A stretch of DNA of 52,371 nt. It comes from an uncultured Oscillospiraceae bacterium. GTDB taxonomy: Bacteria; Bacillota; Clostridia; Oscillospirales; Acutalibacteraceae. Made by a program: the position numbers and the translations under genes. Shown here in pieces: positions 8,734-12,471 of the stretch; position 1 is the first letter of the stretch; each line of letters starts with the position of its first letter. The stretch is taken from positions 1 to 52,371 of the forward strand of contig CASDTR010000058.1 in NCBI GenBank assembly GCA_949283785.1. Direction: 5' to 3'. The notes below the pieces were generated by a model. The model saw only the letters and a program-made list of their open reading frames with translations, searched no databases and had not been told where the DNA came from.

Positions 8734-8975
8734 CCTTTTCTTAAACGAATTTTCCCCAAATTTTGCACGCAATACCATATTTAATAGTATATAAATTGCG
8801 CATATTCAGTCTGTTTCGGCCCCTGCGCCGCAAACGGAGAAAAATTTCTCGCGGCAAAAATTATATTCCGATTTTAAGAAGAGGCAAAAACTTTAAATTT
8901 TTTTCGCGTTATGTGTCTTTTCGCCGTAAAATTTATCCTATATTTTTATTTGGGAATATGGCGCTGAAAAAAATA

Positions 8976-9006
8976 AGACAGACCGAAGGCACTGATCGGT
9001 CTGCCT
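8976..9006 (-). terminator. Terminator of the ECF-sigma gene cluster
   Basis: On the minus strand AGGCAGACCGA (9006-8996) pairs with TCGGTCTGTCT (8986-8976), with one G-U pair and a 9-base loop, followed by TTATTTTTTT. It is 33 bases past the stop of the last gene in the cluster. Confidence 0.88.
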
Positions 9007-9038
9007 TAAAAAACCTTGTGCACAATCTGCCGAGGCGC

Positions 9039-9290
9039 CTATGCATAAACCTCACAGAAAATTTTGTTTTCGATTTTTGAAAGCTTTCTGAAAATCTTTC
9101 TGTTTTTTGAAAACATTTTGCTCAAAAGCTTATCGGCGTCCTTGCTTACATATACGACAATTATATCGGTATCCTCTTTTTCCTCTCTGCGGGCGCTTTC
9201 GGTGATCCTTCTGAATATGCTCTTTCGCACGCTCTCTGACGGAGCGTAACCGGATACGGCAGCATTTATGAGTTTATCAGCACTGTCCAT
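9039..9290 (-). CDS. Small protein encoded directly after the ECF sigma factor
   Basis: 83-residue protein of unknown function, the last gene of the ECF cluster. It is rich in Lys, Arg, Asp and Ser; the central DIIVVYVSKDAD stretch looks like a buried beta strand and the rest should be helical. It has no membrane segment and no ZAS-type His/Cys motif, so it is not a standard anti-sigma factor, although its position is where such a gene often lies. ATG 9290 is favoured because GGAGG lies seven bases upstream inside the end of the sigma gene; a TTG two codons earlier overlaps the sigma stop. Translational coupling to the sigma gene is likely. Confidence 0.65.
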   Translation of the reverse strand: MDSADKLINAAVSGYAPSESVRKSIFRRITESARREEKEDTDIIVVYVSKDADKLLSKMFSKNRKIFRKLSKIENKIFCEVYA

Positions 9291-9292
9291 CT

Positions 9293-9775
9293 TCAATCCT
9301 CCATGTCGAGATTATGTAAAAAATTTTTCCTTGCCCTCTGGAGCCTTGAGCGCGCTCCCGAAGCCGTCATGCCGAGCAGCTCACCGATTTCATCTCCGGA
9401 AAAACCCGCCGCTTTCAGAGATAAGATTTCCCTGTCATCTGCGCTCAGAGATGCGAAGGCTTCCCTCACCTCGAGAGATGAATCCGGATTTTCCGTTTTG
9501 TTTATATCCCCACTGTTTTCCATACGGCTGTTCAAATCGGCACTTTTGTATTTTTCACGTAGACGGTCATTTTTTAAATTAACCGCTATTCTGAAAATCC
9601 ATGCCTGCCAGTTGTCAGGCGGCGTCTGAGAGCACCTTGACCACACCCGCATAAAGGTTTCCTGCGAAAGCTCCTGCGCCGCGTCGCTTCCGAGGCACAC
9701 GGAAAAATAGGCGTACACAGGTGAAAACCATTTTTCGTATAAGCTTTCAAAAAGCTTATTTTCCTCCGCTCCCAT
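9293..9775 (-). CDS. ECF-type RNA polymerase sigma factor
   Basis: 160-residue sigma-70 family protein with only regions 2 and 4. Region 2 spans about residues 8-80 (YEKWFSPVYAYF, then AQELSQETFMRVW and AWIFRIAVN); region 4 with its helix-turn-helix spans about 105-155 (LSADDREILSLKAAG, then EIGELLGMTASGARSRLQRA). It directs RNA polymerase to alternative promoters. ATG 9775 follows the stop of the upstream gene by five bases with no clear RBS of its own, so it is probably translated by coupling. Its probable target promoters lie in the same cluster at 10642-10666 and 10965-10989. The signal it answers to is unknown. Confidence 0.92.
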   Translation of the reverse strand: MGAEENKLFESLYEKWFSPVYAYFSVCLGSDAAQELSQETFMRVWSRCSQTPPDNWQAWIFRIAVNLKNDRLREKYKSADLNSRMENSGDINKTENPDSSLEVREAFASLSADDREILSLKAAGFSGDEIGELLGMTASGARSRLQRARKNFLHNLDMED

Positions 9776-9780
9776 AGTTT

Positions 9781-10605
9781 TTAAAGCTTTATAAGGGCGG
9801 CTGCCGCCTTGTTTTTGGAATGTGCCTCAAGCTCGGTGCACTTTATTGCGGCAACTTTATTCAAAAGCTCCTCCCCTGTAACCGAGTGGGAAATTTTAAC
9901 CTTTACAGCCTTTACCGCAATTTTCCCCTCAACAAGAGCCAGCATCTCTCTGTCTATTTTGATTTTCTCTCCGAAATCCCTTACCAGCAGATCCTCACAG
10001 TCAGTGTACATTACTCCGCCCGTGGTGCGGACATTCGACTTCTTTATGGCGCTGTTGGCAACGCAGCTTCCCGCTATGGTTCCGCAGGCATTCTCGGGAA
10101 GCTTCGGCACAAACGCAAGTCCGTTTGTGACCACCAAAGGCTTGCCCTCCAGAAAAATCTCAGAATCAACGCAGGTGTTGTCTCCGATGTCCACTATACG
10201 GTCATAGTCGTCATAACGGGCGTTTCCGTTAACGGAAATGATCTCTATATTGCCCTCTTCAAGATCCTTTTCACTTGCGATCATTTCACCGTTCACAATA
10301 ACCTTTATTTTCTTTCCCGCAAGGGGCGCCACATAGGCTTTGCCGTTTACGATGTAAATCTTCTCTTTAGCGGAGGGATTGATAATTGCCTCGCCGTTGA
10401 TGGTTCCGACTTCCGCATCCTTTCCTACATATACCGTGGAAACTATCCTCTTTTGCTTCACCTTGCCGAAAGCGTTTTTGACTGCGTCATCGGCGTCCTT
10501 GGGAAGAATAAGGAGCACTACGTCCTTGATTTCCTCTATCTCCCTGATCACCTCCGCGTTATTAAGGTGTCTCAAATCACAAATGACCATATGCTTGTAT
10601 TTCAT
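9781..10605 (-). CDS. Unknown protein: N-terminal module plus strand-turn (NG) repeats, ECF cluster
   Basis: 274 residues, no recognised family. Residues 1-50 form a module (MVICDLRHLNNAEV, EIEEIKDVVLLILPKDAD) that recurs in the product of the next gene upstream. Residues 65-170 contain five similarly placed Asn-Gly turns (N70, N87, N105, N126, N161), each flanked by short hydrophobic strands such as KIYIVNGKAYV and KVIVNGEMIA, suggesting a repetitive beta fold. No signal peptide, membrane helix or obvious catalytic motif. ATG 10605 has GGGGA upstream, and an ECF-type promoter lies 36 bases before it. It ends five bases before the sigma factor gene, so it is almost certainly cotranscribed with it. 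Confidence 0.7.
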   Translation of the reverse strand: MKYKHMVICDLRHLNNAEVIREIEEIKDVVLLILPKDADDAVKNAFGKVKQKRIVSTVYVGKDAEVGTINGEAIINPSAKEKIYIVNGKAYVAPLAGKKIKVIVNGEMIASEKDLEEGNIEIISVNGNARYDDYDRIVDIGDNTCVDSEIFLEGKPLVVTNGLAFVPKLPENACGTIAGSCVANSAIKKSNVRTTGGVMYTDCEDLLVRDFGEKIKIDREMLALVEGKIAVKAVKVKISHSVTGEELLNKVAAIKCTELEAHSKNKAAAALIKL

Positions 10606-10641
10606 AAATCATTCCCCTTTTCTGCTGTTTCATAATATAAA

Positions 10642-10666
10642 GACGGATTCAACGGAAATTTGTCCC
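10642..10666 (-). promoter_or_regulatory. Putative ECF-sigma promoter of the NG-repeat gene and sigma operon
   Basis: On the minus strand GGGACAA (10666-10660) and CGTCTTT (starting at 10645) are separated by 14 bases. The same two blocks at the same spacing precede the paralogous gene upstream. ECF sigma factors commonly use a G-rich AAC/GAC -35 and a CGTC -10; assigning it to the adjacent sigma factor is inference. Confidence 0.65.
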
Positions 10667-10930
10667 GCTTTTATTTTTGAAGCTGACGTATTTCAGTCCA
10701 AATTCCCCGCATCCTCTTAAAATACACCTGAGCTTTCTCTCGCTTTTCGCCGCCTGTATTTCGGCAGCGACGTCTGTCCGCTTTACCCTTTCAAGAACCT
10801 CTCTGACTTTTCGGTCGGCATCCGACAGCAAAATCAGCAGACCCACATTCCTGATTTCCTCTATCCTCTCGGCAATACATATATCATTAAGGCATCGCAA
10901 ATCGCAGACCGCCATATTTTCCAGTATCAT
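10649..10930 (-). CDS. Small protein sharing the N-terminal module of its neighbour, ECF cluster
   Basis: 93-residue protein of unknown function. Its first half (MAVCDLRCLND, RIEEIRNVGLLILLSDADRK) aligns without gaps larger than one residue to the first 50 residues of the downstream 274-residue protein; its tail is short, basic and different. ATG 10930 is preferred over ATG 10936 because AAGGAG lies seven bases before the former and only one before the latter. It is followed by a second ECF-type promoter, so the two paralogues can be transcribed separately or together. Confidence 0.65.
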   Translation of the reverse strand: MILENMAVCDLRCLNDICIAERIEEIRNVGLLILLSDADRKVREVLERVKRTDVAAEIQAAKSERKLRCILRGCGEFGLKYVSFKNKSGTNFR

Positions 10931-10964
10931 AAGCATTCTCCTTTCCGCCCTTTACAATAAGAAA

Positions 10965-10989
10965 GACGCGGAAAAGAGAATTTTGTCCC
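10965..10989 (-). promoter_or_regulatory. Putative ECF-sigma promoter of the 93-residue gene
   Basis: On the minus strand GGGACAA (10989-10983) and CGTCTTT (starting at 10968) are separated by 14 bases, identical in blocks and spacing to the site at 10642-10666. It lies 34 bases before ATG 10930, against 36 for the sister site. Confidence 0.65.
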
Positions 10990-11028
10990 TGTATTCTGAA
11001 AATCAATTAAAAATAAATCCGAAAAAAT

Positions 11029-12471
11029 TTACTGCTTCTTCCATGCCCTCGGAATAAAGAGCATAAGCATCGGGAAGAGCTCAAGCCTGCCCGCAAGCAT
11101 GTCAAAAATCAAAACGTATTTGGCGAAGGGGCTGAAGCCGCTGTAATTTCCCATGGGTCCTACTACCTCAAGTCCCGGACCGATATTATTGAGGGTGGCC
11201 ATGACAGCCGAAACGTTTGTCGTAAAATCGAAGCCGTCTCCGGAAACCAGAAGCACCGAAAGCCCCATAACCAAAACGTAAGCCACAAAAAACGCGGTAA
11301 GGGAGCGGGCCACGCTGTGCTCTATTTTCTTTCCGTCAAGAGTCACGACTTTGACGCTGCTCGGATGCATGATATGTCCGAATTCCCTGAACATGGTTTT
11401 GACAAGGAGCACGATACGCGATATTTTGAAGCCGCCGCCCGTACTGCCTGCACAGGCACCGAAAAACATAAGCACTATGAGCAGCACTCTGGAAAACTCA
11501 GGCCAGAGGTTAAAGTCGGTAGTCGAAAATCCCGTGGTGGTTATAATGGAACCGACCTGGAAGGCCGCCTGATGCCACGCCTCAAAAATTGAGCTGTACA
11601 TGGGAAGAATATTCAAAGTTATAAGCGCGACGCTTGCGACGATGATGATTATATACCAGCGAAGCTCCTCGTTTTTAAGAGCTTTCTTGATATTCTTCTC
11701 GTAGAAAATATAAAAATAGACCGTAAAGTTTACGCCGAAAAGTATCATGAATACGGTTACAACCAGCTGTATATAGGGACTGTAGCTTTCAAGGCTTGTA
11801 TTTAAAAGGGCAAAGCCGCCTGTACCGGCAGTACCGAAGGAGATGAGAAGTGCGTCGAAAATATGCATGTTTCCCAAACTAAGCAGTATTATTTCAACTA
11901 CCGTAAGGGCAAAGTATATTCCGTAAAGGGCCTTTGCAGTCGTACTTATTTTCGGGGAGAGCTTTCCGACAGAAGGTCCGGGGCTTTCCGCTCTCATAAG
12001 GTTCATGCTGTATCCTCCGCCGGGTGGGATTATGGCAAGAAGGAATACCAGCACTCCCATACCGCCTATCCAGTGGGAAAAGCTTCTCCAGAACAGCATA
12101 CACTTTGAAAGCGCCTCTACGTTTTTAAGTATACTCGCGCCTGTAGTAGTAAAGCCGGAAACCATTTCAAACAGTGCATCCGTATATGAGGGGATTTCTC
12201 CTGAGATATAAAATGGCAGTGCTCCTACGGCGCTGATTAAAATCCAGCTCAGGGCAACGGTGAGAAAGCCTTCCTTGGCGTAGAAAACGTGATTTGATGG
12301 ACGTTTGGCGGAGAAAATTATGCCGAGGGCCAAAGCTATAAATATGGCGGGGAAAAAGGCCGCTCCGCTGTCCTCCTGATATACGACTGATACAAGACAC
12401 GGCAAAAGCATGAGAGCCGCCTCCGTTAGCAGCACTCTGCCGAGCAAAAACAATACCATTCTTCGGTTCAT
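11029..12471 (-). CDS. trkH: Trk-type potassium uptake membrane subunit
   Basis: 480-residue polytopic membrane protein of the TrkH/TrkG/KtrB family that forms the K+-conducting path. Four pore-loop segments are visible, including MVSGFTTTGASIL, GTAGTGGFALL, GSIITTTGFSTTDF and the last repeat around TLNNIGPGLEVVG, each with the selectivity-filter glycine. GAGGAG lies 12 bases before ATG 12471. It sits 42 bases downstream of trkA, so the two subunits form an operon. No terminator was found before the ECF cluster downstream. Confidence 0.95.
   Translation of the reverse strand: MNRRMVLFLLGRVLLTEAALMLLPCLVSVVYQEDSGAAFFPAIFIALALGIIFSAKRPSNHVFYAKEGFLTVALSWILISAVGALPFYISGEIPSYTDALFEMVSGFTTTGASILKNVEALSKCMLFWRSFSHWIGGMGVLVFLLAIIPPGGGYSMNLMRAESPGPSVGKLSPKISTTAKALYGIYFALTVVEIILLSLGNMHIFDALLISFGTAGTGGFALLNTSLESYSPYIQLVVTVFMILFGVNFTVYFYIFYEKNIKKALKNEELRWYIIIIVASVALITLNILPMYSSIFEAWHQAAFQVGSIITTTGFSTTDFNLWPEFSRVLLIVLMFFGACAGSTGGGFKISRIVLLVKTMFREFGHIMHPSSVKVVTLDGKKIEHSVARSLTAFFVAYVLVMGLSVLLVSGDGFDFTTNVSAVMATLNNIGPGLEVVGPMGNYSGFSPFAKYVLIFDMLAGRLELFPMLMLFIPRAWKKQ

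Follow-up and report, generated by a model that had tools for sequence, protein, structure and literature searches.

ECF sigma factors are among the main means of stress response in bacteria, and the controllers known for them belong to a few classes. The closest described systems are the autoregulated operons of an ECF sigma factor and its anti-sigma factor. Measured against the criteria in PMC8103513, the locus described here resembles them in a sigma factor with regions 2 and 4, in promoters with an AAC-like -35 and a CGT -10 element, in the placing of a promoter before the sigma factor's own operon, and in a partner gene that is probably co-transcribed. By the features that could be tested, as read from the DNA, it is very probably an autoregulated ECF sigma operon. 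Unlike those operons, its partner is a predicted soluble solenoid with no known anti-sigma domain or zinc motif, and the order of the sigma and partner genes flips between lineages.

Soluble partners of ECF sigma factors include, according to PMC8999054, the zinc type, NepR, CfrX and Asp23, and an Hx3Cx2C zinc motif occurs in about 56% of class I anti-sigma factors, according to PMC7406223. ECF286 and ECF292, whose partners belong to the Asp23 family (PMC8999054), are alike in setting the sigma gene beside that of a soluble protein without a classical anti-sigma domain. However, the partner found here and five of its relatives match no Pfam family credibly, Asp23 included. No published description of the module was found in the open-licence literature.

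The operon lies in a 52,371-nt stretch of DNA from an uncultured Oscillospiraceae bacterium (contig CASDTR010000058.1, hereafter the window). A preliminary description had proposed that an ECF sigma factor activates its own cluster from two matched promoters. We call the family of the 274-aa partner protein, g2, CDLR, a name coined here from its N-terminal CDLR motif.

Layout of the operon

Table 1. Features of the sigma-CDLR operon, with positions in the window and the evidence for each
Feature	Position	Strand	Basis
P1, ECF-type promoter GGGACAA-N14-CGTCTTT before g1	10962..10989	-	exact match; counterpart in sister species G123
g1, 93-aa N-terminal-only paralogue of g2	10649..10930	-	similarity; intact in G123
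P2, ECF-type promoter GGGACAA-N14-CGTCTTT before g2	10639..10666	-	exact match; counterpart in G123; scan of operons
g2, CDLR protein of 274 aa without a known family, predicted to be a strand-rich solenoid and probably soluble	9781..10605	-	
160-aa ECF sigma factor with regions 2 and 4	9293..9775	-	Pfam, NCBIfam, PDB sequences
Small 83-aa gene, candidate soluble anti-sigma or accessory	9039..9290	-	relatives at the equivalent place in some operons
Intrinsic terminator, hairpin of 13 pairs and U7	8967..9008	-	-20.3 kcal/mol, z -7.2

The sigma gene begins 5 nt past the g2 stop, and its identity as an ECF sigma factor, already proposed, was confirmed by Pfam (PF04542, 8.9e-7; PF08281, 1.3e-10), by the NCBIfam sigma70-ECF model above its cut-off and by 13 PDB sequences at E <= 1e-10, all of them sigma factors. 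The protein contains no large domain besides regions 2 and 4, and may already carry an ECF group number. A small gene that the preliminary description had missed begins 2 nt past the sigma stop, and downstream of it a hairpin with a U tract closes the operon. This hairpin is missing from the list produced by the terminator pattern scan, which allowed loops of up to 8; its loop of 9 is the probable reason.

The two genes preceded by promoters had been described as paralogues. They are indeed related, but the likeness is confined to g2 residues 4-62 (39% identity, E 8.5e-7). An alternative g1 start at ATG 10936 is also possible; 10930 is the better choice and is common to the sister species (G123), whose operon likewise consists of these four genes with both promoters. 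When the two species were compared, dN/dS was 0.18 (g1), 0.04 (g2), 0.09 (sigma) and 0.09 (small gene), the last with synonymous sites almost saturated; the trkH- and trkA-like neighbour genes gave 0.02 and 0.02. We take all four operon genes to be real on this comparison.

Two matched promoters in the window's genome

Both promoters have exactly the sequence first reported for them, and none arose in 100 shuffles. They are also the only matches in the 2,406,440 bases of the genome (71 contigs, spacers of 13 to 15 allowed; the reversed control pattern had 0 matches); the check for occurrence at chance frequency did not refute the proposal. Other details had to be revised. Counted from the last base of CGTCTTT, the distances to the genes are 31 nt for g1 (ATG 10930) and 33 nt for g2 (10605), instead of 36 and 34, and the second site is not wholly intergenic, its -35 block sitting within the final codons of g1. 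In the sister species P1 reads CGGACAA..CGTCTTT and P2 reads GGGACGA..CGTCTTT; the -35 block differs by one base at either site, so the exact seven-base blocks are not both retained.

Promoter conservation across operons

An ECF-type site was found upstream of the first gene in 31/34 operons scanned, compared with a mean of 1.1 and a maximum of 5 operons in shuffled sequence. The scan took in at most 220 nt ahead of the first gene (for the window and its sister species, the g2 promoter), was compared with 200 dinucleotide shuffles, and used the pattern RAC[AG][ACG]-N14-16-CGT[CT] with the next two bases each T, A or C. This pattern was drawn after the sequences had been viewed; therefore 31/34 describes conservation and is not an independent test. 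The three misses were an operon whose -10 reads AGTC (G446), one whose contig ends 47 nt upstream (G276) and one whose start had been set upstream of the site (G470). Two further operons found later in the same phylum (G991 and G1006) have an ECF-like promoter by eye. The start codon lies at widely varying distances from the first base of the site, 29 to 207 nt.

Whichever of the two genes leads the operon, CDLR or sigma, the site stands in front of it, and the spelling of the site changes with the sigma lineage. Among operons with a short CDLR protein and a match, the -35 starts GAC in 16/16 and the -10 is CGTC in 16/16; among those with a long CDLR protein and a match, the -35 starts AACA in 14/15 and the -10 is CGTT in 12/15. 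The window's own block, GGGACAA, thus has the core GAC and not the AAC of nearly all matching long-form operons. This shift of spelling with lineage is the best evidence that the sigma factor reads its own promoter and, together with the presence of the site under both gene orders, upholds the original proposal: the sigma factor very probably turns on its own operon, a well-supported reading of the sequences.

In many operons (e.g. L018, L019 and L053) an RTGAAA-like element was seen by eye just 3' of CGTC, extended in some to a palindrome, GTGAAACCGGTTTCA in L018 and GTGAAAGCGCTTTCA in L053. Lying about where transcription should start, it is a possible operator or start-region signal.

Possible reach of the sigma factor beyond its operon

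In the window's genome and that of the sister species, GGACRA-N14-CGTC gave 8 matches compared with 27 for the control. Four are at this operon; of the other four (3 + 1 by genome), one falls within a long open frame, and the two species have none of them in common. The pattern GACANNNTN{11,12}CGTCTT, run over 14/17 short-form genomes, showed no excess either: the reversed control had 77 matches and the pattern itself 35, of which 13 are CDLR-operon promoters and the other 22 were counted as a total only. We therefore rejected a wider sigma regulon in the window's lineage, as no further targets rose above the reversed-pattern control.

Over 17/19 long-form genomes, RACASTTN{12,13}CGTYWT gave 64 matches versus 126 for the control. 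Twelve of these are CDLR operons, and 11 of the remaining 52, chosen by eye, were inspected. In two of the three genomes of genus g390, G750 and G872, a similar promoter precedes a gene for a protein of about 100 aa, and the two proteins look alike by eye; in the third, G708, whose sigma gene is split between frames, the promoter is kept and the open frame was not seen (loci L127:2271-2645, L129:3031-2643 and L128:3158). An inverted repeat, CCATTCGT..ACGAATGG (CCGTTCGT in G708), covers the -10 and the stretch before the start codon. This gene is a possible second sigma target in g390, a lead picked from 64 matches where the control gave 126. If it holds, the sigma factor is not always confined to its own operon.

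Distribution of the sigma-CDLR pair

CDLR matches (E <= 0.001) were found in 8/200 genomes of the family, 19/394 of the order, 12/391 of the class and 5/398 of the phylum, the window's genome being counted in every survey and the later surveys partly overlapping the earlier ones. They amount to 37 distinct genomes, or 36 after G1316 was dropped as a false match (E 7.3e-4; no open frame there reaches the CDLR profile at 1e-3). An ECF sigma gene adjoins CDLR in 36/36 genomes, all of one phylum. It looks intact in 34/36, is mostly deleted in G137 and is split between two frames in G708. Assembly error is possible in both of the broken cases. In G137 (L015:2708-2890) the deletion, which may be natural or an assembly artefact, fuses the beginning of sigma with the region of the small gene and leaves CDLR and its promoter intact.

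Two forms of CDLR were distinguished. The 17 short forms (219-291 aa) have the order CDLR-sigma, and the 19 long forms (17 of 395-412 aa, with G991 at 404 and G1006 at 391 aa) have the order sigma-CDLR. A profile built from short forms alone recovered every one of the 17 long forms searched with it (E 1e-23 to 3e-8), so the two are one family.

The two genes overlap or lie <= 24 nt apart in 28/33 pairs measured. Their trees have 16/30 splits in common, and their distances correlate at 0.87 over 33 pairs, a value reached in 0/2000 permutations (within groups, 0.63 for 16 short and 0.87 for 17 long forms), an agreement that plain shared descent would also give. On this comparative evidence, the sigma-CDLR pair, which is absent from the preliminary description, is a conserved core unit inherited together.

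The CDLR protein

That the products belong to no known family was borne out for g2, which had no credible match in Pfam (none below E 0.06), NCBIfam (none below 0.3) or PHROGs (none), and no relative by sequence in the PDB (best E 0.4). A model of g2 built with 8 sequences reached pLDDT 84.2 and pTM 0.65; one of a long form (G750), built with 32 CDLR proteins out of a set of 34, reached pLDDT 90.6 and pTM 0.77. In the latter, strands and helices alternate along the chain. The alignment has four conserved Asn-Gly pairs at intervals of 19 to 22 residues (G in 32/32, N in at least 90%). Foldseek searches of the PDB with the two models returned no row at E <= 0.001 (best E 0.48 for g2 and 0.023 for G750); among the best 50 rows of each search TM-scores were 0.21 or less, and leucine-rich-repeat (LRR) chains recur among these weak rows.

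We read CDLR as a predicted strand-helix solenoid, possibly LRR-like, with no solved family member known. The sheet geometry is inferred from predicted models, and the fold of the long form is applied to g2 because the two are homologous. In its modelled strand-helix repeats and Asn-Gly ladder CDLR is like leucine-rich-repeat and beta-solenoid proteins, but unlike them it has no significant Foldseek row, and g2 and five relatives have no Pfam LRR match, a search that could miss a distant relation. The protein is probably soluble: no stretch of g2 is strongly hydrophobic (19-residue mean at most 1.07), and a more hydrophobic stretch occurs in 2/34 CDLR proteins (G034, 1.94; G589, 1.74).

Several other origins were considered and rejected. 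Kinship with bactofilin, MinC-like proteins or Asp23, an idea drawn from the NG-rich strands, had no profile, PDB-sequence or Foldseek support, and the MinC row in the g2 Foldseek list (E 3.8) was discounted as evidence. PHROGs gave no sign of a phage origin, and a plasmid search with one long form found nothing.

The nine C-terminal residues of long forms look like the N-terminal strand (INAA-type) of the same protein and co-vary with it (e.g. L093:2904-4121 and L146:2489-3664). For 12 representatives the own-pair score was 134, versus 76 (sd 12.6) with tails swapped, and 0/5000 swaps scored as high, residual relatedness among the proteins still being included in these figures. Over all 19 long forms the scores were 224 and 136. 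The N-terminal window is the tail's top match in 8/19; in the others, different stretches of the same protein match better. The resemblance suggests that in the 400-residue forms the tail may cap or gate the solenoid.

The small gene and the search for anti-sigma signatures

A phmmer search with the small protein of G526 found, in a set of six, those of the window, G123, G002 and G480 (E 7e-13 to 5e-9). The sixth, in G853, is related by position and alignment only. No small gene was seen after sigma in 10/15 short-form operons inspected by eye, an inspection that covered short forms only. The window's small protein had no PHROGs match, and its Pfam and NCBIfam matches were weak and below the curated cut-offs. 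The best of these, an NCBIfam match at E 0.019, lies far below its cut-off and is distrusted, and a match to PADLOC PDC-M63A (E 0.0049, 14.8 bits) is too weak to trust.

The Hx3Cx2C zinc motif was found in 0/34 CDLR and 0/6 small proteins. No anti-sigma family appeared at E <= 1 for the window's proteins (Pfam, NCBIfam) or for five CDLR relatives (Pfam). With neither an anti-sigma domain nor the zinc motif, CDLR is therefore not filed as a classical anti-sigma factor.

Discussion

Our favoured reading, to which we give a probability of roughly 0.55, is that the operon is a self-activating ECF module in which CDLR binds and controls the sigma factor while being its main target. RNA polymerase carrying the sigma factor would start at P1 and P2, and the transcripts would give g1, g2, the sigma factor and the small protein before ending at the hairpin after the small gene. 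CDLR, as a soluble cytoplasmic solenoid with a ladder of Asn-Gly turns, would bind the sigma factor and act as an anti-sigma factor or as a signal-gated regulator of a new type. As CDLR would be both regulator and main target, the loop would be self-limiting. The N-terminal fragment g1, with its own copy of the promoter, could be an extra or competing partner. A scan of 8900-11100 for sigma-70-like promoters had no hit (0 versus 3.4 in shuffles), so the first transcripts may arise by read-through from the upstream trkH-like gene (a name given by eye).

Solenoid shapes often serve protein binding, so an invariant partner that is soluble and solenoid-shaped is a good candidate for the regulator of the sigma factor. 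A different ECF sigma factor of the cell could in principle read P1 and P2, the -35 AAC and -10 CGT cores being common to many ECF sigmas (PMC8103513), but we hold this improbable, as the site accompanies this sigma gene in nearly every operon scanned, changes its spelling with it and is near-absent elsewhere in the genome. An unlikely candidate too, though a better one, is the small gene as the real anti-sigma of this lineage, with CDLR as target or co-factor. Directly after the sigma stop is a usual place for an anti-sigma gene, and this one starts 2 nt beyond it, has relatives in the five genomes named above (the one in G853 by position and alignment) and has a dN/dS of 0.09, with synonymous sites nearly saturated. 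Against this, it was unseen in two thirds of the short-form operons inspected and carries neither an anti-sigma domain match nor a zinc motif.

It is a tentative but serious possibility that CDLR is purely the output, the sigma factor being a dedicated switch for one cytoplasmic solenoid (a scaffold, a shield or a binding protein) and being held by something else. In the window's genome the two promoters of the operon itself, both with CDLR-type first genes, are the sole targets seen; g2 is nearly as constrained as the trkH- and trkA-like neighbours; and CDLR and its promoter persist in G137 despite a mostly deleted sigma gene, which counts against CDLR as regulator. So does its conservation: an anti-sigma factor is not expected to be better conserved than its sigma, and between the two sister species identity is 90% for CDLR versus 82% for sigma. 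On the other side, the invariable pairing and tight gene coupling resemble those of a sigma factor and its regulator, and the short-form operons in which no small gene was seen after sigma have no partner gene of that kind to hold it. A CDLR that did nothing but restrain the sigma factor is also hard to accept: in the window's genome, where no further target was found, the module could then produce no response. There is an output only if CDLR is also an effector, so both roles are kept open. Weighing these points, we infer that CDLR is slightly more likely to be the sigma factor's regulator than only its product.

The module combines an unnamed partner present in all 36 genomes, a defined promoter and few visible targets. 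A protein family with no credible Pfam, NCBIfam or PHROGs match would thereby gain its first hypothesis, and the module may show a new way of holding a sigma factor.
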